64,000 nt of DNA. Source: Sphaerolaimus hirsutus. Its lineage: Eukaryota > Nematoda > Chromadorea > Monhysterida > Sphaerolaimidae. The position numbers and the translations under genes were made by a program. Numbering within the stretch: the stretch's first letter is position 1; every line of letters starts with the position of its first letter. The stretch is from positions 19,557,147 to 19,621,146 of the forward strand of contig OZ038457.1 in assembly GCA_964036195.1 (NCBI GenBank), read 5' to 3'. The notes under the pieces are model-generated. The model was given only the letters and a program-made list of their open reading frames with translations, was not told where the DNA came from and did no database searches. Positions 2,103 through 49,200 of this stretch are shown piece after piece.

Positions 2103-3049
2103 AACTCGGCGGACTTTTTGCTATACAATGATCGCATGACGTCATTTCGCTGGAATTCAGCCAAGAATAAAGAATGTAAAATACAGTAAACAATAAAATG
2201 CGCAATCTAAATGACGCAATTTTCGCACGTTCTAAAGCCTACACCCATTTCGCTATACAATTTTGTTCAGTTTAGGTATGATTGATAATGTATTGATTTA
2301 AACTTTGAATGGATATATTCCATTCAGTTTGGGGGTGATTTGATTCCATCCAAACTTTTAACGGGACAAATCTCTTTTTGGATCAGTGCCAAAAATGTTT
2401 GTGGCGCGTGTTCATGAATACTCCGGTTATAAGTCGGGACAATAAATTGCGATGGTTAAGCACAGCGGAATAGCGATCCGCTGAACCGCTAACAACCATG
2501 AGATGCATTTCATTTGATGTTATCCTGTCATTCAAAATTCCGTTCCTGGCCTGGAAACTCATAAAAATCATATCGGCCAAGCGATTAAAAGCAAAAATTT
2601 GTACTCACCGATTATTTTCTTGTTCCGTTCTGATGGAGTTAGAATATTTGACAAAAAGGATTTGTATTTCACTCAAATGGGTAATGTCACTCCTAAAAAA
2701 GCAGAAATGCATCAGTAAAAAACGCTTGGATGTTACATTTGAGCCTTTTCAGGATTTTAAAACACTTCACCCAATCAAATAAGGGTTTTGATTGAATACT
2801 AGAAATTATAAGGAAATAAGTCATTTGCGATTAAGCTAATTCAATAGAATATTCTGCTCAAGCACAATCAGCGTCACAGCTTGCGGAAATGCCGTACTCC
2901 GCATAGTCCAGACCAGACCAGCAAACGCTTTTTCTATTTTTATTTTGTTTTAAATAGGCAGTCGGCGTATGGGCAGTTTCACCTCGCCGACGCTCAGTGA
3001 AGGGAAACATAAGTGGAACAAACTCGTAGAATATCATGTCTGCCGAGTT
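2103..3049. mobile_element. TA-flanked element with CTCGGCGGAC ends, left arm only
   Basis: Ends are AACTCGGCGGAC and GTCTGCCGAGTT, flanked by TA on both sides. The right arm at about 34230 has the target with one TA. The 947-bp interior is AT-rich, with one short unremarkable ORF (2498-2782) that I do not consider a gene. It belongs to the family at 1821, 4090 and 40024. Confidence 0.72.
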
Positions 3050-3897
3050 TAAATAGGCAACACATACTTTGAAAAAAGTATCTGTACTCGTTTGTACGCT
3101 TACTTTTTGTGAGTACTAGAGTACAGTAGAGTAATTTTTGGGGAGTACAGAAAGAGTATTTTTGCAATGCGAGAACCCTGCTTTTCATAAAGAATACTAT
3201 TCACAGAAAGCAAACACCTTATTGATGTCTAGGGTAAACATTCATAATGCTTTTTCCAGAAAGAAAAGGTAATTTTACTAACTTTTATCCATTCCTAAAA
3301 GAAAAATACTCCCATTTATGCATTCTGTTCTGAGAAAAAGTATGTGACTCTCATTTACTCGCGAGTAAAAGTAAAATAATTACTTTCTAAATACGCTTTC
3401 TGTACTCGAGGGTGAGTAAAAACAAAATACTTTCGCATACGCATATTTTGAAAAAAGTTCGGTACTTTTAACAACTGGGCCTAGTTGTAGTATAAATACC
3501 TGGTGCGAGATTTAAAGAGCCCAACTCAATGTAAAAAAATCAGGAAATATCTGACACCTTAGAGTTAGATCCGAAATAAATGTCCATACTGTCTAGCAGA
3601 AAAAGCGGGCTAATTAAATTCCGCCCCTGCGTTCTTTTCTTTCATGCCCATCCATTTCTCTCACATTCGGAACGAGGGCGATGTTTCAGGATCGAACGAG
3701 ATCGCTTGTCAAGAACATAAATTCCTCAGACATAAATATCGCTTGAGCGGTTCATTTTTTCAATGTTCGCCACGTCGTTATGGCTGAATTGAATTGGGCA
3801 TTCACGTGTGCAAATGTCTCGTTTGTGACGCCAGATTTATAACATGGTGGCGCGTGGCACCGTAAAAATGGATGGGAGTCACTGTGATTATTTGGAA

Positions 3898-4087
3898 TAC
3901 TGGGCGGACAGCACACCTAGTATGAAACCTACCATAATTTACTGAATAAAGTCTTGTGATTTAATTTCGTAATTAATTGTTCAATAGTAAAAACGAAATA
4001 TTATGATGAAAAAACTGTATAATTTTTGGTTCATGATTCAGATGGGTTATGGTAGGTTTTCATACTAAGTGTGCTGTCCACCGCTTA
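3898..4087. mobile_element. Palindromic MITE, GGACAGCACAC ends
   Basis: GGACAGCACACCTAGTATG near the start is mirrored by CATACTAAGTGTGCTGTCC near the end, with the CCTACCATAA arm also mirrored. A counterpart is at about 33195-33380 in the right arm and a relative at 40024-40212. No coding potential. Confidence 0.6.
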
Positions 4088-4089
4088 TA

Positions 4090-4326
4090 TACTCGGCGGA
4101 CCGGTTGCTATGTGTTTTTTGGATAGAAAAATTGTTCCACAAAAAAAGGAAAAACCTTTCGGGAAAAACATAAGTTGCATATGGAAATGAAAAAGCTTGC
4201 ACATGACTCCGCCTTTTTTTTTTTTGGAATATTTTTTCTTTTTTTGTGAAGTGCGTACATCCTGCTCGCGCGTTATCGACTAAGACATAACTAATTTGGG
4301 GTGCATACTTTGCGGTCAGCCGAGTA
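4090..4326. mobile_element. TACTCGGCGGAC-ended MITE
   Basis: Begins TACTCGGCGGACCGG and ends GGTCAGCCGAGTA, flanked by TA on each side, as expected for a Tc1/mariner-type target. Present in both arms (right copy about 32950-33196), so it predates the duplication. Poly-A/T rich inside. Confidence 0.6.
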
Positions 4327-4468
4327 TATGTTCCGGAATAATTGGGACAATACTTTTGTGAGATACCTAACTGATCTCTTGTGCCCACGGGACGGTTCCC
4401 TCACGGATCTCCCTGGCATGGAGTCCCTGTTTCTGATATTTTAAAAATTGGGCAGCATATATCTATCT

Positions 4469-4615
4469 ACCGTATTCCCTCGAAATACCCCCAGGGGGTT
4501 TGTTTTTTTCAGAGTGGAAATTGGGGGGTATTTCGAGGGAGTTTATTATTTCGTCAGAAATTGGTAGTATACGATTCCAGGAATTTCAAAGGGGGGATTT
4601 CGAGGAAATACGGTA
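4469..4615. mobile_element. CGAAATA-type foldback element
   Basis: Starts TACCGTATTCCCTCGAAATA and ends with the inverse (CGAGGAAATACGGTA), enclosing C-run/G-run segments. It is a short member of a family with many copies in the window. Right-arm copy about 32664-32815. Confidence 0.7.
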
Positions 4616-4670
4616 TGTGGAGCTGGAATTATTGTCAGAAGCGCTCAATGTGCGTAAATACGAAACTTTT

Positions 4671-4866
4671 CAACCGTTACTTTTTCAACCGAAACTTCAA
4701 ATACTCGTAGATCAGCTTTGAAGGCATTTTGGTTTACCGAAATGAGTAATTTTTGATTCCCATGAACTGTAGTTGACGGCCACCTCATTCTATTATCGTA
4801 AACTCAAAATTCAAATACATTCAATGCTGATTTGTGAGTTTTCAAAGTTTCGGTTGAAAACTACTG
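4671..4866. mobile_element. Palindromic MITE with CAACCGAAACTT arms
   Basis: CAACCGAAACTTCAAA near the left end and TTTCAAAGTTTCGGTTG near the right are inverted repeats, with AGTTGACGGCC in the middle. The same architecture and core recur at 16573-16764. No ORF. Confidence 0.55.
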
Positions 4867-4868
4867 TG

Positions 4869-5171
4869 CAGAGGTGGTCAAAGTACTGAACTATTTTAAA
4901 AGTAAACGTAAACGTAAAGTATTTTTCTTTTACTCACCCCTGATTACAGAAAACGTTAAGTATTTTTTAAATACTTTTAACACTGCGTAAAACGTGAGTA
5001 AAATGACATTTTCTGTCCCCTAAAAATACGTTTTCTGTACTCGCGTACTTTCAAAAAGTACGCGAGTAAATGAGTACTGGTGATTTTTTCGCGAGGAAAC
5101 GTAAACGTATTTACGCAGTACTCGAGTATACGTATTTATCGAGTAAACGTAAATACCTTTTAACAACTATG
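4869..5171. mobile_element. hAT-type MITE, CAGAG(T/G)TGGT ends, 8-bp TSD
   Basis: Flanked by CTACTGTG at 4861-4868 and 5172-5179. Left end reads CAGAGGTGGTCAAAGTACTG; right end reads TTTTAACAACTATG. An 8-bp duplication and a CA.. terminus are typical of hAT transposons. The same family sits on splice sites at 14215 and 44914. The right arm has the matching insertion at 32108-32410 with CACAGTAG duplications, so it predates the duplication. Confidence 0.78.
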
Positions 5172-5304
5172 CTACTGTGTAGAGCTATTTAGTTTACTGC
5201 AGTGCAATGGACGCAATAAAATAAACTTTTCCCACATTATCACAAGTCAGGAATTGTTTTATGGTCGTGAATAGATTTTTTGAAGTTTTATGAATGATCC
5301 TGAT

Positions 5305-5644
5305 CAGGGTTGGCAAAATCTCAGAAAAAAATAAAAATAAAATAAAAATAAAATAGAAAATAAAAGAATAAAATAAAAGTAAAATGTAAAATTGAAGAAT
5401 AAAATAAAAATAAAATACAATTTTAATAAAAATAAAATAAAATTTTAGTAAAAAGCATTTTACTTAAATCAATCCTGGTCACGATCTAAAATATAAAATA
5501 AAAATAAAATTAAAATAAAATGAAAAATTGAAGAATAAAATAAAAATAAAATGGAAAATTGAAGAATAAAATAAAAATAAAATACAATTTTAATAAAAAT
5601 AAAATACAATTTTAGTAAAAAGAATTTTACTAAAACCAACCCTA
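5305..5644. mobile_element. hAT-type MITE with AAATAAAAT core, left arm only
   Basis: Flanked by direct repeats ATCCTGAT (5297-5304 and 5645-5652). Ends are CAGGGTTGG and CCAACCCTA; the core is irregular AAATAAAAT repeats. The right arm has the empty site, one copy of the same octamer (ATCAGGAT on +) at 31975-31982. The insertion is therefore younger than the split of the two arms. The same family, much larger, is at 62382-63383. Confidence 0.9.
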
Positions 5645-6139
5645 ATCCTGATTACCAAATTTATATTTCCTATAAATTAATTAAATCAATTTTATTTCCT
5701 CGTTTATTGGGTAATTTCATAAAAAAATAAATGCTTTTCGACGGAGTTAAGGGGCTTTTGCGCGATCTTTATGTAACTGTATTTTCAATAAATAAATTGA
5801 AATTTACACAACAAAAAACATTTCAAGCTGTGACACGTAAATCAGCGTTTGAGCTGCGATTACAGCTTGACGTGAAATTTAAACACGCAAAAACTGTTCC
5901 AATTAAACTGGCAATTGTAAGCATAGTATAATAATTGATAGACATTTTTTGAGCCGTGTTGAATTGAATATTTTATTTTGTTTCCATTCTTAATTCCAGT
6001 AAATTAAACAGTGTTTTTTGGTAGTATAGCGTGCGCAAGATAGAATAATAGACACATTGATGTATACTGGTGGACCGCAAAGTGTGCACCCAAAGTCTTA
6101 GCCGATAACGCACGAGCACTATAATTAATTACCTATGTA

Positions 6140-6591
6140 TACCGTATTTCCTCGAAATACCCCCCCCCTTGAAATACCCCCCCCCTCGTTTGACCCCCCC
6201 CTCTCGAGACCACTATGAAACAATCACCCCCCCCTCGAAATACCCCCCCCCCAAATTGAGTGTAAAGGGAACGTACATGACAATAACTGTAGTTTGTGTT
6301 CAGTGTACTGCAGAACACACGTTAAAACAATGTCGGTGTCACGTTAGAACAGTGTACATACCATCTACATACTAATATTAGTCTACAGAACCTTATAAAT
6401 GGCGGTTTTTGTTGCATTTTTCGACGTCTGCGTACGTTTCAGACGACAATTTCGTACTTGGTTTTCAAAAATTTTCTTGTGAAGCAATAACCCCCCCCCC
6501 TCGAAATACCCCCCCCTCGTTCAACCCCCCCCCCCTCTCGGGACCACTATGAAACAATCACCCCCGGGGGGTATTTCGAGGAAATACGGTA
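6140..6591. mobile_element. CGAAATA-type foldback element
   Basis: Begins TACCGTATTTCCTCGAAATA and ends with its reverse complement. Blocks CCCCCCTCGAAATACCCC and CTCGAGACCACTATGAAACA repeat inside on both sides of a unique 230-bp centre. Nearly the same sequence is at 15265-15701, so this is a defined family, not random C-runs. Confidence 0.8.
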
Positions 6592-6984
6592 TACACGTTA
6601 ACAACAATATTTTAATTGAAAAAGTTAGAGTAGAGTACAACCAACATATTTACTTTTCGTGCCAGAAGTAATTTTTCAATTTTTGTTGCAATTTTTATTT
6701 ACTTAATGATGGCGTCATGATGGAGTGCTTCGTTTAGAAAAATGGATACATAGCACTTACATGGGGGATTCTTTTGCTAATTTACGTGGGGGGGGGGGTT
6801 ATTCCGGGGATCACTGGCGCAGGCAAATCTTACACAAATCAAGAACATAATCTAGAATATGATATAATATTTCGCGAGAGGCCGCAGACTAATCAATTTA
6901 CGCTTCAACAAGAATTAAAATGAATATTATCCGTTCTCTACGCAAACAGACGCTGAAAAAAAATTACGTGACCCATTCAACATG

Positions 6985-7290
6985 TGAAACCTGCTAATAA
7001 TGCGGCGCCAGCCAGCCGCCAGGGGCAGGGCCCTTTTTGCAGCCGGGCCGCCGTCCCCACCGACGGACCCATTATGCAGCGAGAAATATCCACGCGCGGC
7101 GTATTTCATGCCGGCGGCGCGACGGGGCGGCAGCGGCCGCGGCGGCACAGATCAAAGACTCGGGGCCCGCGCAGCCGGGGCGGCACTGTGTGTTCGCCTG
7201 AATCGGAATGAAACCGCCCCGGTGCCGGCCGGCCGTGCCGTGAGAGAAGGTAGGAAAACCACGGGCGGGTATAATGCAGTGGCAACGCCC
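6985..7290. other. GC-rich CpG-dense island of unknown function
   Basis: A sharp rise in GC and CpG compared with the AT-rich surroundings, well preserved in the other arm (about 30780-31075). Several frames stay open simply because of the composition, so open frames are not evidence of coding. It could be a promoter, an unspliced 5' exon, or a fragment of a GC-rich repeat. Confidence 0.4.
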
Positions 7291-9296
7291 ACTCGTTCTT
7301 GATGGATATTTTTTTCCTGAGATTACGGATGATAGTACTCGCGCGCAGCTATTGTGACCGGGTGCACTGATAGAAATACAATAGAATAGAAATGCAAAGG
7401 GGTCCGGGCATGGCATTTGATTGGCACGACACTTCTTTATGGGTATACTCGGCGGACATGATACTCTGCGCTCGCACTCATTTATGTCTCACGTTGGAAG
7501 CGTGCCAATGATGATAAAAGATTTTTGTAGAAATAATGAAAAATATCATTGATGGAATAAGTTAACGTATAGCGTTACAACAGAGATGACTTTTTTCAAC
7601 TTTTTATAAAAATCCGATGCGTAAAAAAAATCGTTGGCACGCTTCCAGCGTGAACTACGCGTGAAGGGTATGAAGCGACTGGAGTATATTTCGATCTCGA
7701 CGATTTTTTATCGAATCTCGTAGGCTGCATCTGCATCTAAAATTTTCCGATGCAATGAATCGGTCCGCTCGAAAAAGCCTAGCGGTCTAATTAAAATCCA
7801 TCCCAGACGACGCGTTGTAAAATTTCTAGTATCCATTGCTGGTCAAAAATCAAAAAGAAAAAGAAAAAACGAAAAAAAGAAAAAAAGAAGGAAGTTTTAG
7901 CGGACAAGGCCACCGAACTCTTGAAATCAAAATATTAAAAAATTCAAAATCCATCGATCGAAAACTGATCGACAAAACGATCCGGCCGTTTTACAGACGA
8001 GCGACACAAAACCATCCTACCCGGTCTCACACGAACAGGAAAAAACAGGAAAATTTTGAAAATATTTTACAAGGAAAAAGCGTTATACAGAATGAAATGG
8101 GGCGACTAGAAGCGACTGGCGCCGTCGAGCAACACCCAGGGCTCATTCACACGGAATGCATTTACACACCCCAGTATTTATGTGCATTTTATAAGTGTGA
8201 ATGGCGCCATGGCGCCAATGGCACGTGTTTGACGTAAAAAATTGGTGTAAAATGCATTTGAGGAGTCTAATTCTAAGTCGACAAGTTCACAAAATGCGAT
8301 TTCAACAAAATATGTAAGTTTCAGATCCAATTCGCGGTCCGTGGTGCGTGTCCAATTTGGCTATCTCATGTCTACCATCAAGTTCCAAATGTTGACAATA
8401 AAGTGTCAAATTTTCAGCCCCTGCTCTGTGAATGTGAAAATGTGTATATGTGAAAAATGGGGTGTCCATAGAATTCCATTTGGGCAGTGCAAAACTGTTT
8501 TGGGGAGGGAAATGGACTTGTAGACTTCTTCTTCTTGTCGAAATCAGTGTCCATAGTGGACTTATCACATTTCTTGCTTTTTCCCAACAAAAAATATGTG
8601 TAGGTGGACTTGTTGACTTTTAGCCCAACACTAAGTGGGTTTGTCGACTTCTTGCCCAATTTTTTCCACGTTTTCCCACAATATCAAAGTTGACGCTATC
8701 AAGTGAGGTCAAAAAATTTATGGAAAATAATGAAAAAGTGCAGGAAAAGCCCCAGATGATGTTTGTGGGCCTAACTCAAAACTTTCTTATTTTGGACATT
8801 TTCGACTTTTAGAATTGGATGCCTCATTTGCATTACAATATTTATACACGGTGGTTGTGATGGGGGTGGTGATGATGATATTCATCAATTATTCAAGATT
8901 TATTCAATGTTAAGAGCACTTTTGGATGAAAGAGTCTGCTGACCACACACCATAATATGAAATGTCACATATTTATGATATTCCATATCTGAATAAAAAC
9001 ACCAAAAAATATCTCACACACCAAATTTGTTACAAAATGTATCATGTGACTTTGTCACCAGAATACGGTAGCGTGCATTCCGGCCAGTGTGCAAAATGTT
9101 TCAAATCAACCCTATGTGTGAAAATGTTGAGCTCAAAATATGTTTACATTTATTTTATAATTAATAATACCTGAATAAAATAGGTAGATAAATATAATGT
9201 TGATATAATTGAGGCATACATGCACAAGTATGGCAGTGTAGTACAAAGCTGTTGAGACGATTCGGGCACATTCTAAACAACAAAAATCAGATTAAG

Positions 9297-9506
9297 GTGC
9301 CACTCCCAGACCCTGTAAAATGTTAAATGTTATGCAAAGTGTCAAAGGTCATGTAAAATGTCCTGTAAAACGTCGTCAGCCATTTTACATTTCTTTTGAC
9401 ACTCTGCATAACATTTGATATTCTACACGGAATTTTACATGACTTTTGACACTTTGCATGCCATTTTCCATTTACATGGCATTTTACAGGGTTTGGACGT
9501 GCCCAC
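9297..9506. mobile_element. Introner-like palindromic element
   Basis: Left end GTGCCACTCCCAGACCCTGT is the terminal repeat of the element that forms introns at 12093, 23750 and 46555; the right end (ACAGGGTTTGGACGTGCCC) is a diverged inverse. The interior is a near-palindrome of ATGTAAAATG and CATTTTACAT words. Right-arm copy 27555-27765. Flanking DNA is not recognisably coding, so whether this copy is spliced is unknown. Confidence 0.72.
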
Positions 9507-11553: not shown

Positions 11554-14500
11554 TCACAGTTGACGTTTGTTCATCCTGTACGCCAGACGCCTCTGATTGG
11601 CATTCGGTTCGTTATCAGTAGCGCTGGGCCGTTCCCACGGCCGCATCTCGGCCAACTGAGCCAGGGGAACGTCGAAACGCCGCTGGCCACTTTCTGGCTG
11701 CGTGCCAGATCCGGATGTTTCGCCGCGGCGCCGGCAATCTTGCAGGCAAGTGTACAGCCTGGGCGGCGGCAAAAAAGCTCGACAGAAGAATGAAGACAAA
11801 TAAAGAAATTATGTAATTACCGTATTTCCTCGAAATTTCCCCTTCTTTAACCCCCTCAAAATTTCCACTATGAACAAAAAAAACCCCTGGGAGTATTTCG
11901 AGGAAATTCGGTATTCGTGCACGTGGTTTTCGACGACCACCAGACCTGGGCAGCATCTCGAACATGGCTTTCCTGATATCCTTGGACAGGGCGACGATCA
12001 AGGCCGGCTGCAGCAGCGGGTGCATCGTTTGTATGAAACCGCACCAAATGGTCATTTTGATGGCGAAATGGGTGGGCGTCGAACTTGGGGCACTCCCAGA
12101 CTCTGTAAAATTACCGGAAAAATGTCAAATGTCATGTAAAGTGTCATGAGTCATGTAAAATGTCCTGGAAAATGGCAAACTCCTTCTGCATTTTCGAGGG
12201 CATTTTACATGACTTTTGACACATTGCGTGACATTTAACATTTTACACGGCATTTTACCAGGTCCGGGAGTGGCACCTGTGCAGCTTCAAATAAGCAACA
12301 AACGCTATCGAAGGAATGAAGCAAATGGAGAATAGAACAAGCTCGCAGGTCAACAGTCGGATTGCCTGCGGAAGAAAAAAGATTAATTTATGGGAAAATG
12401 GATATCGTGCGCATGGGTGGAGTTGCCTAGTTGGGTGTCGATCCCTCCCGCAGCCTGTCAAGTGCCACCTGACGATGACAAATGACTAGGTAATTTCAGA
12501 TCAATGTTCATATGGGCCAGTGTCGTACATTGTAAAATGAAATGTAAAATGTCTCACAAATGTCGTGTAGGTAAACAGATTTTTTTCTTATTTTCTTTTT
12601 TTACATTTCACATTACATTTAAAGGGGTACTAGACTGGCTCGTATATTTCACTACATCACTTACTTGAAACATTTCCCGAAATTCCCTTGTCTAACGTCA
12701 ATATCAATTTTATTTGTGGATTTTGTCACCGTCAACACACCTACAGGGCCCTTACTGGGTGCGGGATTGACAGATGACTAACTCTGAGTCTAGCCGCACG
12801 CATTTTCTTGTGTCCGTGGAGCTGCTTGGCGCCCGGAAATGCCGCGTTTGCAGCGGCGGGCAACTGCTGATCTTCGTCGACACTCGCGCCCAGCGATGCC
12901 ACCAGACTTCCCTGTGAGTTGACACTTGACAATAATGGAAATGGAAATTGAAATTTGAAATGGTGCCGCCGTCAGCTTGTCACTTGACACTTTTCTTGTC
13001 ACTTGGTCAACTATTTATAACTTGACGTTATCGCTTGGCACTTTTCTTGTGACTAGCCTACTTTTGGACTTGGACTTCGCGCCTGGACCTTTAGACCATG
13101 TAAAGTGTAAAATAAAGTGTAAAATGTCATGTAAAATGCCATGGAATGTGTCAAATGTCATGCAAAATTTTAAAGTAATGTGTCAATTGTCATGCAGAGT
13201 TCAGTAGCAAAATGTTAACTTTTTTGTTTCAATTGACATTTTACATGACATTTGACACTTTACTTTACACTTTACATGATCTCGGACTGCACTCTCACTG
13301 ACCTGCGACGCGACGCTGGCCATGGGCGGCTTCGCCTTGGCCACCATGCTGTGCAGGCTGAGCAGCGTGGTGCTGCTGCGGTGCAACAGGCCGACGATGC
13401 GGCCGTGCCGCGACTCCGACTGGCTGTCGCCCTCGCTGCCCACCGTCGACGAGGGATTGTGGATGCCGGCCAACCTGCGTGAACGGGTGTCGTCGTCGGG
13501 GTGTTTCCGGCATAGCCAGTAACGATGGCAAAGTTTCTGGAAAAAGTGTGTAATTTTCAAGTGCTTTTTTTTAAAATCACTTTTCGAATTTTCGAATTTT
13601 TTTGGAATACTTTTCAACTTTCAAATTATCACATTTTCGAATTCGTGTTGAATCACAACTCCGAGATTTGAATACATATCTAGGTATCTATGTTTTGTGG
13701 CTTTCCAAACTGTTAGCGCAGACATATTTTTGCATGTTCTGCCGCTACTAAAAGATCCAAGTGAAATTGATGTTTTGTATTGCGTTTCTGCATCTGATAC
13801 ACATTTTCAACCAAAAATCGAGACTAAATTCGAAAATTCGACAACTTTTTCGGAAAAAATACATTTTTAGTTGTTTTTTCTAGTGGTGAAGTAAAAATTC
13901 CAATTTTTGTTTGCCATCGTTATACACAACATAACGCAAACGCCGCAACGGCCCTTTGTTTCAACGCGGTCACATCGAGCACGCTACCACTGGCGCTATC
14001 AGCGTCGCTGGGCCCTTGCCCGGCGCCTTTGGCGGGCGGGTCGCACACCATGCTGACGGGGAACGCGCTGGCGGCGTGCTGCCGGGTGCCGACCAACTGC
14101 GGCCGGTCGCCCGTTGATTGGTGACCCCGGTCCTGTGAAGTTGTCGTAGATTTGTGGCCTAGGATTTTGCAGGCGGTGTGTAAATATTTATGGGGGTACT
14201 GAAGCGACCAGTAGCATAGTTGTTACCTGAAACGTATTTACGTTTACTCGAAGAAAACGTATACTAGAGTGTACTCGTTTTTCCTCTGACAAAGTACCTG
14301 TGCTCGCTTTTACGCAAACTTGTACAGAAAGTACTCGGATACAGAAAACATGAAGCACTATTATAGGGGAAAAAGCCAAAAAAAAATGCTGAAAATAGGA
14401 AAATTCGAACGCGAGAAATGACAAAATATATGAAAAATTAGTGATTTTGAGTGAAAATTACAGCGACATTTAAAAAATATATCCAATTTTTACATTTTCC

Positions 14501-23660: not shown

Positions 23661-24478
23661 GCAATCCGACTTTTGACCTGCGAGCTTGTTCTATTCGCCA
23701 TTTGCTTCATTCCTTCGATAGCGTTTGTTGCTTATTTGAAGCTGCACAGGTGCCACTCCCGGACACGGTAAAATGCCGTGTAAAATGTTAAATGTCACGC
23801 AATGTGTCAAAAGTCATGTAAAATGCCCTCGAAAATGCAGAAGGAGTTTGCCATTTTCCAGGACATTTTACATGACTCATGACACTTTGCATGACATTTG
23901 ACATTTGACAGGTAATTTCGCAGAGTCTGGGAGTGCCCCAAGTTCGACGCCCACCCATTTCGCCATCAAAATGACCATTTGGTGCGGCTTCATACAAACG
24001 ATGCACCCGCTGTTGCAGCCGGCCTTGATCGTCGCCCTGTCCAAGGATATCAGGAAAGCCATGTTCGAGATGCTGCCCAGGTCTGGTCGTCGTCGAAAAC
24101 CACGTGCACGAATACCGAATTTCCTCGAAATACCCCCAGGGGGTTTATTTGTTCATAGTGGAAATTTTGAGGGGTTAAAGAAGGGGAAATTTCGAGGAAA
24201 TACGGTAATTAAATAATTTCTTTATTTGTCTTCATTCTTCTGTCCAGCTTTTTTGTCGCCGCCCACTGCCCAGGCTGTACACTTGCCTGCAAGATTGCCG
24301 GCGCCGCGGCGAAACATCCGGATCTGGCACGCAGCCAGAAAGTGGCCAGCGGCGTTTCGACGTTCCCCTGGCTCAGTTGGCGGAGATGCGGCCGTGGGAA
24401 CGGCCCAGTGCTACTGATAACGAACCGAATGCCAATCAGAGGCGTCTGGCGTACAGGATGAACAAACGTCAACTGTGA
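23661..24478 (+). pseudogene. Second, 5'-truncated copy of the GPCR (TM6 to C-terminus)
   Basis: Exons 23661-23749 (TM6), 23934-24080 (TM7) and 24274-24478 (tail) match the left-arm exons in length (89, 147, 205 bp), phase and splice signals, ending in the same NKRQL stop. Few residues differ (for example VLFAICF for VLFSICF). The exons for TM4, TM5 and the third loop are absent because the arm ends at 23392, so this copy cannot encode a receptor. Intact frames fit a recent duplication or a misplaced second haplotype. Confidence 0.75.
23750..23933 (+). mobile_element. Palindromic element forming the duplicated GPCR intron
   Basis: Same 184-bp intron as 12093-12276 in mirror position: the exon ends GCTGCACAG, the element begins GTGCCACTCCCGGACACGG, and the far end GAGTCTGGGAG supplies the acceptor before TGCCCC. 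Length and both splice sites are retained in the two arms despite internal substitutions. Confidence 0.82.
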
Positions 24479-27554: not shown

Positions 27555-27765
27555 GTGGGCACTTCCAAACCCTGTAAAATGCCATGTAAATGGAAAATGG
27601 CATGCAAAGTGTCAAAAGTCATGTAAAATTCCGTGTAGAATATCAAATGTTATGCAGAGTGTCAAAAGAAATGTAAAATGGCTAACGACGTTTTACAGGA
27701 CATTTTACATGACCTTTGAAACTTTGCATAACATTTAACATTTTACAGGGTCTGGGAGTGGCACC
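27555..27765. mobile_element. Introner-like element, right-arm copy
   Basis: Mirror of 9297-9506. Here the far end is a perfect GGGTCTGGGAGTGGCACC, and the start reads GTGGGCACTTCC. Read on + it offers GT..GGGAG ends, but no exon is recognised on either side. Confidence 0.7.
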
Positions 27766-43014: not shown

Positions 43015-43167
43015 GCGCCAATCCCAAGCCCTGTAAAGTGTAAAGTGAAGTGTAAGATGTCATGTAAAATGTCCATCAAAGAAAAAAGAAGAGATTTTAC
43101 TACTGGACTTTGCATGACATTTGTTTGACACTTAACTTCACACTTTTTCAGGGTCTGAGACTGTCCC
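43015..43167. mobile_element. Introner-like palindromic element
   Basis: GGCGCCAATCCCAAGCCCTGT at the left and TCAGGGTCTGAGACTGTCCCC at the right are diverged inverse ends. The inside has GTAAAATGTCC and GCATGACATTTG words as in the intron-forming copies. Upstream of the MSP gene; no exon seen next to it. Confidence 0.6.
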
Positions 43168-43791: not shown

Positions 43792-45431
43792 ATGGGCGAG
43801 CCCTCGGTGGACCCTAACATGGCGTCGATGCCCGCCTCGGGCGGCAGCTCGTCGCACACCATCTCCAATCCGACCGAGAGTCGCATGGCTTTCAAGGTTG
43901 GGTTAGGTTGAGATGGGTTTGGGGCAATGGAACGCGAGAAATCGATCAACTTCCTGGGGCAGTCCCGCACCCTGTAAAGTCGTGTCTTGAATGTCATGCA
44001 AAATGTCAGTAATAAAATCTTTTCGTTTTTACTTTATTGACACTCTGCATGACTCCACGCTGCGCCATTCAATCACTACTAGTCGCTCTAAAATAAGGCA
44101 CGAAACATTGCCTGGAACCGGGAACTTTGTCAGAAATTGGTCACTGAAGATCGCACCAGTGCGGGATTTCAATCGGCTCACGTATACCGATATTTTCTCG
44201 AATAACCCCCACCTAAATAGCCCCATTTCGGGACGAGCTGGCGGAAAAATAAGCCCCCTGGGTTCAACGAAATACGGTAACACACCCACACCCGAATCCA
44301 ATTCCTCAAGCGTAGCAAACAACTCAGGTGAAAACGTCCGACAACGCCCTGTACAAGGTGAACCCCGTGTTCGGCTTCGTCGAGCCCGGCTCGCAGGCGT
44401 CCGTCGAGGTGACCCGCTCCGACGGGCCCGCCAAGGACGACAAGCTGATCATCCAGCTCGCGCCCACCACCCCCGACTGCGCCGATCCCAAAGTGAGTTT
44501 AGTGGAGCCGGGGGGGGGGGGGTTGAAACGTGGTGTAAAAACGTCGATGTATTGAACGTCGAAGAACCGGCAGCGTTGCTCTGTAGCTACTTGTACTATT
44601 TCGTATATACCGTATTTCCTCCCAGGGGGTTTATTTTTTCAAAATGAGAATTTTGAGGGCGGTGGGGTTAAACGAGGGGGGTTATTCGAGGAAATACGGT
44701 ACACCATCAGTGCCTCGCGTTGGAAGTGCGCCAACGATTATTAACGCATGCTAGTTTCGTGAACAATGTAAAGTCACTGATCTATGTTATGCATTAACGG
44801 TTATGTAAATATTTTAAAACGTTAGTGATTGTAATAAATCCGTAGCGCAATCTATTTGACCTCGCGAATTGAATCAGCTTTCTCTACAAGCCCAGCCCGC
44901 TCGCTCAACACAGCATACCTAGTTGTTAAAACTGTATTTACGTTTACTCGATAAATATTTACGGATACTCGAGTACTGTGTAAATACGTTTGTTTTCCCC
45001 TCAAAAAAATACCGGTACTCACCTTCTCGCGTACTTTTTGAAAGTATGCGAGTACAGAAAACGTATTTCAAACAGGCTTTTTTATAGGATTTTCAAGGCA
45101 TAAAGGAAACAATGAGAGAGAAAAGCTAAAAATGGGGACAAAATATCCAAAATAGCATAAAAATAGGCAAAAACATTAACTAGTGAATTTGATCGTGAAA
45201 AACTTCCAAAATTAGTGATTTTGAGTGAAAATTGGGGCAAAATTTCTCAAATAACCACTTTTACGTTTTCCACCGACAAATGTAATATACTCACGTTTAC
45301 GAAAAAATAAATACTTTACTTTACGTTTACTTTCGAAAAAGTTCAGTACTTTTAACAACTCTGCAACACAGGAGCCGTTCTCCGCGGGCGGCACGTTCCC
45401 CGAGCTGCCGGTGGCCCTGTCGGCCGCCTAA
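43792..45431 (+). CDS. Single-domain MSP protein, nematode SSP type
   Basis: Three exons, 43792-43896, 44328-44492 and 45372-45431, with GT..AG introns and matching phase 0 junctions, give 109 residues. That is the size of nematode small sperm-specific MSP-domain proteins. The beta-sandwich signature is clear: NPTESRMAFKVKTS, LYKVNPVFGFVEPGS and KDDKLIIQLAP. Such proteins are cytoplasmic, form MSP-like dimers or filaments, and are typically made in sperm. The ATG is chosen because family members start about 20 residues before the first strand; an in-frame ATG at 43561 would add a Lys/Pro-rich leader. Exon 3 ends FPELPVALSAA. AAAATAAA near 45677 may be the poly-A signal. Intron 1 holds a degraded introner-like half (43955-44055) and a CGAAATA foldback; intron 2 another foldback and a hAT MITE that abuts exon 3. 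Confidence 0.88.
44185..44279. mobile_element. Short CGAAATA-type foldback in MSP intron 1
   Basis: Starts TACCGATATTTTCTCGAATA and ends CAACGAAATACGGTA, an imperfect inverse. About 95 bp, a minimal copy. Confidence 0.6.
44608..44701. mobile_element. Short CGAAATA-type foldback in MSP intron 2
   Basis: TACCGTATTTCCTCCCAGGG at the left, CGAGGAAATACGGTA at the right. Confidence 0.65.
44914..45363. mobile_element. hAT-type MITE on the 3' splice site of MSP exon 3
   Basis: Flanked by CAACACAG at 44906-44913 and 45364-45371. Ends CATACCTAGTTGTTAAAA and TTTTAACAACTCTG. The right-hand CAACACAG ends in the AG that precedes exon 3, so the target octamer was the splice acceptor itself and is now present on both sides of the element. 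Same family as 4869 and 14215. Confidence 0.85.
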
Positions 45432-45733
45432 GCGACAATTCGACCGCGTGCGCCCACACTTTTTGGGCCCATTTTTGGTGCCTATTTCGTGGCGCCGCGC
45501 ACCCTCTACACTCGCAACTTGTGATATTGACTGCAATATGTGATGACATCTTCAAATCTCTAGTCTGGTGACGCCCGCCCGCCGTTCTGACCCGGCCACG
45601 GTGAAAAAAAACTTTGTGGCCACTTTTTTTTGTGCCACTAGATCGACTTGTTTGACTAGCTTTCCAGATGACGATTAAAATAAATTTGCTACCACTGATT
45701 TCATGTGTTGAATGAACGAGATTAGTGTGCAAT

Positions 45734-45995
45734 TACCGTATTTGCTTGAACAGTTCCTCCTTGAATAATTCCCCCTGTCGAATAATTCCCCCTGTTAAGA
45801 CGAGTGGGGAGGTAATAATCCCCCCTTAACAAAAATGGCTCGTTGTTGTGTTGATAAAGCGTATTCCGTAAATAAGTGAAATAAAAATGGTTGAAATTTT
45901 CGACAAAAAAATGATCCTTCCCTTGAATAATCCCGCCACCTCAAAAAAAAACGAAATAATAATTCCCCGGGGAAATTATTCAAGCAAATACGGTA
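45734..45995. mobile_element. Variant foldback between MSP gene and pmt-1
   Basis: TACCGTATTTGCTTGAACAG and TTCAAGCAAATACGGTA bound inner GAATAATTCCCCC words; same type as 10553-10880. It lies between two convergent genes. Confidence 0.7.
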
Positions 45996-46215
45996 GTAAC
46001 ATGCTAGTGATGAAAAAAACGAGCAGTAAAACAGTAGAACCAATATTTCAACGAGAGTAAGACAACAGACTGCGGATGCGGTGCCGAATTCAAGGACTAC
46101 TTACGTGTCCATGGACGCATCGATAATTTTCCAACGAGAAGTAAAACTCATTAAAAAAAATAAAAAAAAAATCTCATAAAAAAATCATAAAAATCTACTC
46201 ATCTAAAAATGTCGA

Positions 46216-49200
46216 CTACGTTCGCTCGAAAATGTACGCAACCATTTCGCCCGTTCCATCAGATGGGCATTTTCTCTGCAGCGTCCATCCACCGAAAGCC
46301 TGGGCGATTTGAGCAGCATTTTTTCTGGAAAAAAATCGAGCCCTGTAAAAATCACCTCGCTTCCAGCTTCACAATTAACATCCCAATTGTTGCTTTCGGA
46401 GCGGAGCAAAATTAGCTGTTTCTTTCCGTCACCGTCATCGAATAAACTCTGCAAAAATCTCATATAGAGAAACTTAAGTTGAACATTAAGTTGAACTTCA
46501 TTTCTATTTATTTTTTTCTCACCAATATAGAGGGCGTGACATCATCAGGGGGCACTCCCAGACCCTGTAGAGAGCCCTGTAAAATGTGAAATGTCATGCA
46601 GTGTCTAAAGTCATGGAAAATGCCCTGCAAAATGGCAACCATTTCGCAGGGAATTTTCCATGATTTATGACACTTTGCATGACATTTGACATTTTACAGG
46701 GCTCTACAGGGTCTGGGTGTGGCACCTGGACACATATTCAGCGCACAGACAATTCTCGGAGCCATGGCAGCCAGTGGGATTGGGTAGTCGCACGACTTTC
46801 TGCATAATGTTCATAAAATATATAGAAAAGAAAAAAGACAGAATATTAAGCAGTCCGTAGACGGATAGAGTAAAAATGCTGGATGTACTTATTCCAGTCA
46901 AATTAATTTCCTAATTATCACTAGGATTGGCGCGGATGTCTTTTTTATCAACTGCTCAAAACATTTTTTTCCAAAAACGGCTCAGAGGTTTTTTACACGT
47001 TTTCCAACCCTATTAGCCGTCCCGATAGCTTGGATACGGATAGACAGTGAACATCTGTTTGGAATTTGAAAACCCAAAATGGTATTTGCAAGAACAAAAT
47101 CACTAAAGACGGAGCTTTGATGACCGACCTTAGCTGACATACCCCAAAACAAAACCCAAGAAAAATCAAAAGTCTCACAAATCTGGCAGGAAGACGGCGC
47201 GCACTTTCTTATCCTTCACTTCATTCATGCTTTTGACAGCGCACCGGTACAGGAAGGCGTCGGTCTCGGCGCACACCACCATGCCGTTCCTGGCCTAGGT
47301 GCCCATGTGGTGCCGGTGTGGAAAATATAGATGGACAAATACTGGTGGACCTTATTAATAACAGACTGAACTCGACTTAGTTATTTATGATTACTTAAAT
47401 CTAGTGACCCGTTACTATCTTAAAATTTATTTATACTCGATACTATTGCTATATTTTAAAATCTCCGGAATGGAATAGCCCAACAAATGAGTTTTTAAGC
47501 CAATGAAATGTGTCCAATGAAATTGGAATCTCAGTCTAAGCATTTTTTTCTCGTATCTCACTAGTCCACAATTGCAAATTATATCACCCGACACTACAAG
47601 GAAAAGCAACAGGTACTAGCATTTGCTATTTGAAATGGGTCAATCCTTTGATGGGCGTTCTTGTTGTGGATTACCATCAGCACGCCGTCATCCGCTGCAC
47701 CTGCATCCTGTCAATAGAAAAATGGCGTATAGTATGTGTGGCGGTGCGCTGTGAGCGGGCAATGCACACGTAGGCCTAGTAGTCATCTAAACCCATTGCT
47801 CATCTTGACCCACTGCTCATCCATTCCTACCCGTTGCTCAAATAATGCGCCTAATTGGGGGCCGTAGATGAGCAGGGACACATGCTCGTGCACACACAGT
47901 TATTTATGTCTTCATGTGACAAAAATGTCAGTGTGGCAATACAACAAAATATAGCGCCAAATTTTTCCACCGATTTTTCAGAAAATGCAAGGTGATGGAC
48001 ATGCCGACCTGTTTCACAGCATCAATTACCACCTTGGTCCTTTGCAGCACTTCAGAACTGGCCATTGCCGAGTCAAACTTTGATTGAGCCTCAATTTGCA
48101 TTGTAGCGCTTTCAGGTATGACAACGTCTTTCAAATAATTAGGATCAGTAGCGGGTGGCGATTTTCCGCCGCAATCACAAGGCACTTTCTGCACCAGCAT
48201 GTGAATTTGGCGCCAATTCCCTTCCACCTGTGTTGACGATATCGATATTGACGAAATTAAAGTTCAACATTACACAACGGCAGTGGTATTCTAGATTTTG
48301 ACGCGGGTTGGGGGATAGCTTCTAGGGGTTCTAGGGGTTGGGGGATAGCTAAGCGCCCTGCGGGATAGATAGGATTCTGGGCGGTTTGGAGGGGGGGTAT
48401 GGTAACTTAGCCACAAAGAGAAGTGAAGTGATGTAAAAAAGCGTCACCGACGCTGGCGCTAGCGCCAAAGCGAAACGGTCATGGATTTTTTGGCGCCTGG
48501 CGCCAAAGCTAGGAGCTTTGACTGTACATCACTACCCAAGAGTCACCGGGCGCTCATCACTCCTATCACAAACCGACCTCAATATAAGTAGTTACTGATT
48601 TCGCCCACAGTATTTTGAACCTGAAGCATTGCGCATCTGTATCTGGCTGACTGCTCAGCTGATTAGAGCACATTCGGCTGAGCAAATGGAGATACAGCGA
48701 TTTGGGCCGGTAAAATGTCGGATTTTCTGGGCTAAGCTGCATTGTGGTTCGTTGAGCTGTAAATTGATTTGAATGGTAGATTTAAGTGTGGGGAAATTCG
48801 AAAATAAAAGCTATTAACACTAGGGTTGGCCGATGTTTTTTTTTAAACGTTTTTTTTTTAAAACGTTTTTTTTTATTTAAAAACATGACGTCCGAAATGT
48901 TTTTTTTTTAAAAAAACATCGGCCAAAATTTTTAGTACTAAGCACTAGGTATTTTGCAAAATTTTTGCGCGCTTGCGCGCAAAAATTTTGCAAAATACCT
49001 AGTGCTTAGTACTAAAAATTTCGGTCGATGTTTTTTTTAAAAAAAAAACGTTTTTTTTTTAATAAAAAACGTTTAAAAAAAAACATCGGCCAACCCTATC
49101 TCTGTTATAACACTATACGTTAAATTTTTTACAACAATAAGTTTTTTTTGCATCTTCATACAAAAATCGCATGCTTTATCATCATTGGCACGCTTCCAAC

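Follow-up and report, generated by a model that had tools for sequence, protein, structure and literature searches.

A putative intron in a nematode pmt-1-like gene appears to be one copy of a large family of palindromic introner elements

A putative palindromic intron in a pmt-1-like gene

The window analyzed here is a stretch of 64,000 nucleotides from Sphaerolaimus hirsutus (contig OZ038457.1, positions 19,557,147 to 19,621,146), and positions without a prefix refer to it. A preliminary description, made from the letters alone, regarded the genome as nematode-like, which agrees with 56 matches to the cuticle-collagen N-domain (Col_cuticle_N), and proposed that an intron of a pmt-1 gene is, from end to end, a palindromic mobile element. 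The host gene is indeed PMT-1-like: typed exon pieces matched 4krg, a solved PMT-1, at an E-value of 5.2e-14 through the N-terminal domain. The alignment claimed for the region around the intron was less secure: the C-terminal part, which contains it, gave just a weak alignment to solved PMT-1 (E 0.08-0.27).

The putative intron occupies positions 46555-46725 of the minus strand (171 nt, GT...AG), between an upstream exon at 46726-46799 and a downstream exon at 46523-46554 (VPPDDVTPSI), with the next coding exon of the gene at 46206-46448, all on the same strand. Written with slashes at the element and intron borders, the minus strand reads CCAG/GTGCCACACCCAGACCC ... GGGTCTGGGAG/TGCCCCCTGATGATG, which places the predicted 5' splice dinucleotide, GT, at 46725-46724 inside one terminal repeat and the predicted 3' dinucleotide, AG, at 46556-46555 inside the other, exactly where they had first been proposed. 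The claim that the protein frame runs across the intron was equally sound, the upstream exon ending in ..SCDYPIPLAAMAPRIVCALNMCP and the joined reading being ..SCDYPIPLAAMAPRIVCALNMCP / VPPDDVTPSIL.. Given this arrangement, splicing would be expected to remove 46725-46555.

The whole of 46546-46728 forms a palindrome: inverted repeats (36, 30, and 27 nt) are stacked within it, their arms 86-97% complementary, and the entire segment is 84% identical to its reverse complement. The predicted RNA fold of the intron strand is a single hairpin of -125.4 kcal/mol (z = -19.4), and none of 200 shuffles was equally stable; the palindrome is genuine and far beyond chance. Within it, the transposon copy without its target duplication covers 46549-46725 on the minus strand (GTGCC...CCCC), as delimited by family ends taken from 40 loci. 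It lies between a 5' target-site copy, CAG (46726-46728), which corresponds to the CWG duplication of the family, and a 3' target-site copy, CTG (46546-46548), which the flanking sequence shows to be mismatched to CAG. The end-to-end palindrome first described is near-perfect between CAG and CTG, but the family ends are unequal and the element is no simple palindrome. In this copy, whose right flank is CTG, splicing as proposed would add three codons (VPP) to the reading, the first 9 nt of the downstream exon, TGCCCCCTG, being element plus target copy.

A paralogous block at positions 2634-7209 of locus L009, about 43 kb away, is 92.6% identical to 44213-48825 of the window, indicating that the gene was duplicated together with its neighborhood. 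The block carries the same intron with both GT and AG kept, and the AG was retained despite two changed bases just before it (CTGGGAG to CTATGAG). Substitutions in the two flanking exons are all synonymous: this holds for every codon scored (3 of 3 in one exon and 1 of 1 in the other) and for a fifth change, which lies in the first exon beyond the part that was scored. An intronless pmt-1 copy was sought within the genome, and the sole other copy found has the same intron. As a separate observation, the element intron (46555-46724) is about twice as diverged between the two pmt-1 blocks as the introns around it, with differences at 16 of 170 aligned sites versus 37 of 824 in three neighboring introns (p = 0.014).

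The window also holds a shorter family member at 43015-43167 on the plus strand, with CTG on both sides, GC in place of GT, and four mismatches of 24 at each end. Four more copies, at 9296-9506, 12086-12277, 23749-23940, and 27555-27765, occur in mirrored pairs, which suggests a large inverted duplication. The 3' end of another member (43955-43978, minus strand) stands near an open reading frame at 44316-44450 (plus strand) that appears MSP-domain-like by eye. A long palindrome with A and T runs at 48840-49080, also noted by eye, is apparently unrelated to the element.

Size, ends, and target duplication of the element family

A genome-wide search with the terminal repeat, as proposed in the preliminary description, was run on the assembly (348 Mb, 762 contigs) and revealed a large family. 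The first search yielded 3,018 first-look candidates, 40 of them scored, along with 80 matches that correspond to 40 places read on both strands. Alignment of 40 loci shows that the two ends of the family differ, one being CWG/GTGCCACTCCCAG and the other CTGGGAGTGCCCC/CWG, and that the target duplication is 3 bp long (CWG). In aligned copies, the 5' end reads CWG/GTGCCACTCCCAGACCC and the 3' end GGGTCTGGGAGTGCCCC/CWG; read from outside, these become CWG/GTGCCAC and CWG/GGGGCAC, respectively. Exact 22-mers of the 5' end occur 1,124 times in the genome (605 with CAG and 519 with CTG) and those of the 3' end 789 times (462 with CAG and 327 with CTG), with 0 occurrences of the controls in both cases. 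When up to two mismatches are allowed, the 24-letter 5' end is found 10,420 times (control 0), a count that mixes both ends because the other end differs by only 2 letters. From these figures, we infer a family of several thousand copies.

For closer analysis, the C1 sample, taken from contig C1, comprised the first 80 of 100 listed places with a perfect 5' end. The left/right target copies at these 80 loci, six near-duplicates included, are CAG/CAG in 25, CTG/CTG in 17, CTG/CAG in 7, CAG/CTG in 1, and other combinations in 30. CWG is present on both sides at 50 of the 80 loci and identical at 42; among the remaining 30, the 3' end is often poorly resolved. Exclusion of the 6 near-duplicates and of 14 further places whose 3' end matched at fewer than 17 of 24 positions left 60 loci. 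Element length is 178-193 bp in the first 40 loci and 99-415 bp in the C1 sample. On contig C4 (881755-982294), ten exact CTG-type 3' ends stand on one strand at a spacing of approximately 7-15 kb, resembling a tandem array of a larger unit.

Copies in conserved coding sequence and their predicted splice sites

Copies were removed in silico with one CWG kept, and the joint was translated in one frame per locus and strand, chosen by the same rule. The 60 C1 loci gave 53 open frames in the sense and 55 in the antisense orientation; the sense peptides were scanned singly, with L046, L052, and L053 left out as the shortest (50 scanned), and the scan of antisense peptides covered all 55. Ten of the 50 sense junction peptides had a Pfam match at E ≤ 1e-3, seven of them spanning the joint, compared with 0 of the 55 antisense peptides at the same threshold (Fisher p = 3.6e-4). 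With E relaxed to 0.05, 14 of the 50 sense peptides matched and no more than 4 of the 55 antisense ones. The ten sense matches are not all independent because they include two pairs of neighbors: L073 and L074, 6 kb apart, match the same family, while L114 and L115, 1.6 kb apart, match successive parts of the cullin profile and are probably one gene.

Spanning matches were obtained to CHGN (L055), carnitine acyltransferase (L071), Abhydro_lipase (L074), COMM (L083), bestrophin (L090), and cullin (L115), as well as to GT11 (L076), a match that falls below the curated cut-off and has only five residues upstream of the joint. The other three were not counted as spanning: the 7tm_1 match (L094) adjoins the joint; the Abhydro_lipase match at L073 overlaps it by 1-2 residues, with an automatic 3' end that by eye is one base off through a lost C; and the cullin match at L114 starts at the joint, with no more than three residues on its upstream side.

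The peptide work on the first 40 loci excluded 7 near-duplicates. Ten hand-picked peptides gave 8 Pfam matches, 7 of them spanning (trypsin, sulphate transporter, Myb, Fringe, PDEase at E 0.003, M13 peptidase, and innexin), and ten further hand-picked peptides gave 0 matches at E ≤ 1e-3. Against the PDB, the PRP8 junction aligned without a gap at the joint at E ~1e-40 (3.3e-80 for a chain containing the stretch twice), and the cullin-1, PDE1, and bestrophin-1 junctions were likewise gapless at the joint. In total, removal of the copy restores a conserved reading in 15 genes (7 + 7 + PRP8), 8 of which were first picked by eye. Symplekin (L104, E 4.5e-11) was kept out of this set for its poor upstream alignment and a one-residue gap beside the joint. 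ARPC5, a by-eye guess for the host of L105, was dropped, with no Pfam match and nothing in the PDB below E 0.4; AGXT (L097) and other by-eye host guesses scanned against Pfam were unconfirmed. Over the 60 loci, open frames across the joint are longer in the sense than in the antisense orientation (medians of 40 and 26, p = 0.003) and also longer than in frame-shifted joins (p = 0.002).

Copies with the same ends and CWG duplication are therefore inserted in frame, and in one orientation, in conserved genes, which extends to 15 genes the introner-type insertion that had been suggested for pmt-1. MITEs are common within introns, and an ordinary MITE could have landed in introns whose splice sites are older than the element. 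The element may also be abundant outside genes: 40 of the 50 C1 sense peptides have no family match at E ≤ 1e-3, so that a large part of the family may lie in non-coding DNA or in genes outside Pfam. A pre-existing intron would, however, leave flanking intron sequence, whereas in the 15 genes the coding reading adjoins the target duplication on both sides and no outside intron sequence is needed; we consider this origin very improbable. Equally little credence can be given to the view that the palindrome disrupts genes, as an exonic insertion in pseudogenes or dispensable paralogs. A few copies without a usable AG would suit it, but the coding context is oriented (10/50 versus 0/55), the changes in the pmt-1 paralog are synonymous, and PRP8 and cullin are essential genes, a point made for the loci analyzed here.

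The pmt-1 feature is thus, very probably, one copy of a large introner family formed by a non-autonomous palindromic DNA transposon. Similar sequences appear to interrupt the coding sequence of many unrelated genes, the predicted splice sites lie in the element and/or the target duplication, and the orientation seems limited to the one that bears those sites. The element would insert at CWG, duplicate these 3 bp, and bring its own 5' splice site, since the unequal ends (GGGGCAC versus GTGCCAC from outside) put a GT donor right at the insertion point in one orientation. At a CAG target, the AG of the downstream target copy could serve as the acceptor and the original coding sequence would be restored exactly. 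At a CTG target, as in pmt-1, the acceptor would be the AG in GGGAG/TGCCCCCWG (in pmt-1, GGGAG/TGCCCCCTG), with a gain of 9 nt, or three codons, and an unchanged frame. Both the splicing of the copies and this choice of acceptor are predicted from the sequence. TTTACAG, 19 nt before the exact junction, was rejected as an acceptor because its use would shift the frame.

Of 93 non-redundant copies, 90 have GT next to the 5' target copy, although 60 of the 93, those from C1, were pre-selected for GT, which is constant there because a perfect 5' end was the criterion for that sample. CAG stands on the right in 12 of the 15 genes and on the left in 7; where the two target copies differ, the right one is CAG five times and CTG never. 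Among the 93 copies, differing targets are CTG/CAG in 8 versus CAG/CTG in 4, with pmt-1 itself being CAG/CTG. Genome-wide, CAG accounts for 59% of 3' ends versus 54% of 5' ends (p = 0.04), the 3' figure being weighed upon by the CTG array of contig C4. The right target copy is CAG in 33 and CTG in 18 long-frame copies, compared with 12 and 16 in the others (p = 0.096). The CAG bias on the right fits, if not strongly, a use of its AG as the acceptor, and outside the 15 genes the apparent 3'-side preference is weak.

Across the 93 copies, an AG is available in the right target copy of the 45 that have CAG there and at the GGGAG position in 28 of the 34 right-CTG copies, leaving 6 of the 34 without AG at either predicted acceptor. 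Two copies in coding sequence and in frame, L076 and L114, have CTG on the right and no AG at either place; these may use TG, follow a hairpin-guided route, or be dead. They would suit a variant in which the element is an introner but its CTG copies are spliced at a 3' TG, or through hairpin guidance, and not at GGGAG. The same holds for the PDE1 and bestrophin copies, which have CTG on both sides and are gapless against their relatives (only the exact join was aligned), and for the mutual pairing of both ends in the predicted fold. Against this variant, most right-CTG copies keep the AG of GGGAG, though so do 35 of the 45 right-CAG copies; an addition of three residues may be tolerated; and the AG is retained in the pmt-1 paralog. 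On balance, we find the variant unlikely. Similarly doubtful is the notion that the nematode spliceosome removes very many transposon introns, TG-ending copies included, with the target base deciding between canonical and non-canonical splicing; TG-ending copies would then be spliced because the perfect element hairpin sets both exon ends side by side.

Possible origin and comparison with known introners

For the preferred reading, an introner family with an acceptor in either the CAG target or GGGAG, the target duplication offers a clue to ancestry. By this feature, the element appears to fit the NuwaI group of PHIS (PIF/Harbinger-like) transposons, for which the sections available of one account give a 5'-CWG-3' duplication and a terminal inverted repeat usually beginning with GGG (PMC4482050). 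The element resembles NuwaI in its CWG duplication and in its acceptor end, CWG/GGGG from outside, where the GGG start is present; unlike NuwaI, it lacks this start at its donor end, which is GTG (PMC4482050, same sections). The donor would have arisen through alteration of the GGG of one terminal repeat to GTG, a plausible origin, and a PHIS/NuwaI-type transposase supplied in trans would mobilize the copies. An autonomous partner would encode a DDE transposase and a Myb ORF and would show the CWG duplication and GGGGCACTCCC-like ends. The profile of the Harbinger-like transposase DDE_Tnp_4 gave 163 reported matches in the genome. Dozens of them have near-identical scores and an equal number of in-frame stops (perhaps an intron), which probably marks a young family. 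None of the 15 matches listed on C1 lies, by eye, within 10 kb of a listed exact element end, and no tie between the DDE_Tnp_4 matches and the element ends emerged, so that DDE_Tnp_4 is a candidate partner transposase at most.

The origin of new introns is a long-standing question, and animals have supplied few examples of mass gain. Here, a short palindromic transposon with very many copies appears to give rise to new introns in an animal genome, and a simple origin is suggested, in which base changes in a single terminal repeat of a Harbinger-like MITE would provide the donor and the CAG half of the CWG targets the acceptor. A nematode genome in which a single introner occurs in very many copies, in PRP8, cullin-1, and other genes, would bring the process into a genetically strong phylum with rich comparative genomics.

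Introners as such are already known, and what is added is a family on a large scale in nematodes, an animal group for which the literature matches listed contained no report of introners, in a search that left out most subscription papers. According to the available portions of Gozashti et al. (2022), introners among animals and land plants (835/3,325 genomes) occur in only two groups, both of them animals, and copepods are named (PMC9860276); the term "nematod" is absent from the main text of that study. A paper on non-canonical splicing in tunicates mentions introner transposons in its accessible part (PMC13326754). The introners surveyed by Gozashti et al., as presented in those portions, include some that take one splice site from the target duplication or add codons (Aureococcus, 12 bp). 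The present family resembles them in having similar introns in many genes, terminal inverted repeats, short target duplications, and a splice site from the element and/or the duplication, and it differs in that the target base could decide, within one family, between the acceptor of the target duplication and that of the element itself (PMC9860276). Similarly, it shares inverted repeats with the introner elements of Amoebophrya, which the excerpted text defines among non-canonical introns (>60% of the introns there) and where a hairpin joins the exon ends and direct repeats of 3-5 nt stand at the boundaries (PMC7789003). Unlike those elements, as far as that text describes them, the family reported here has a nearly constant GT at its 5' end and an available AG in most copies.
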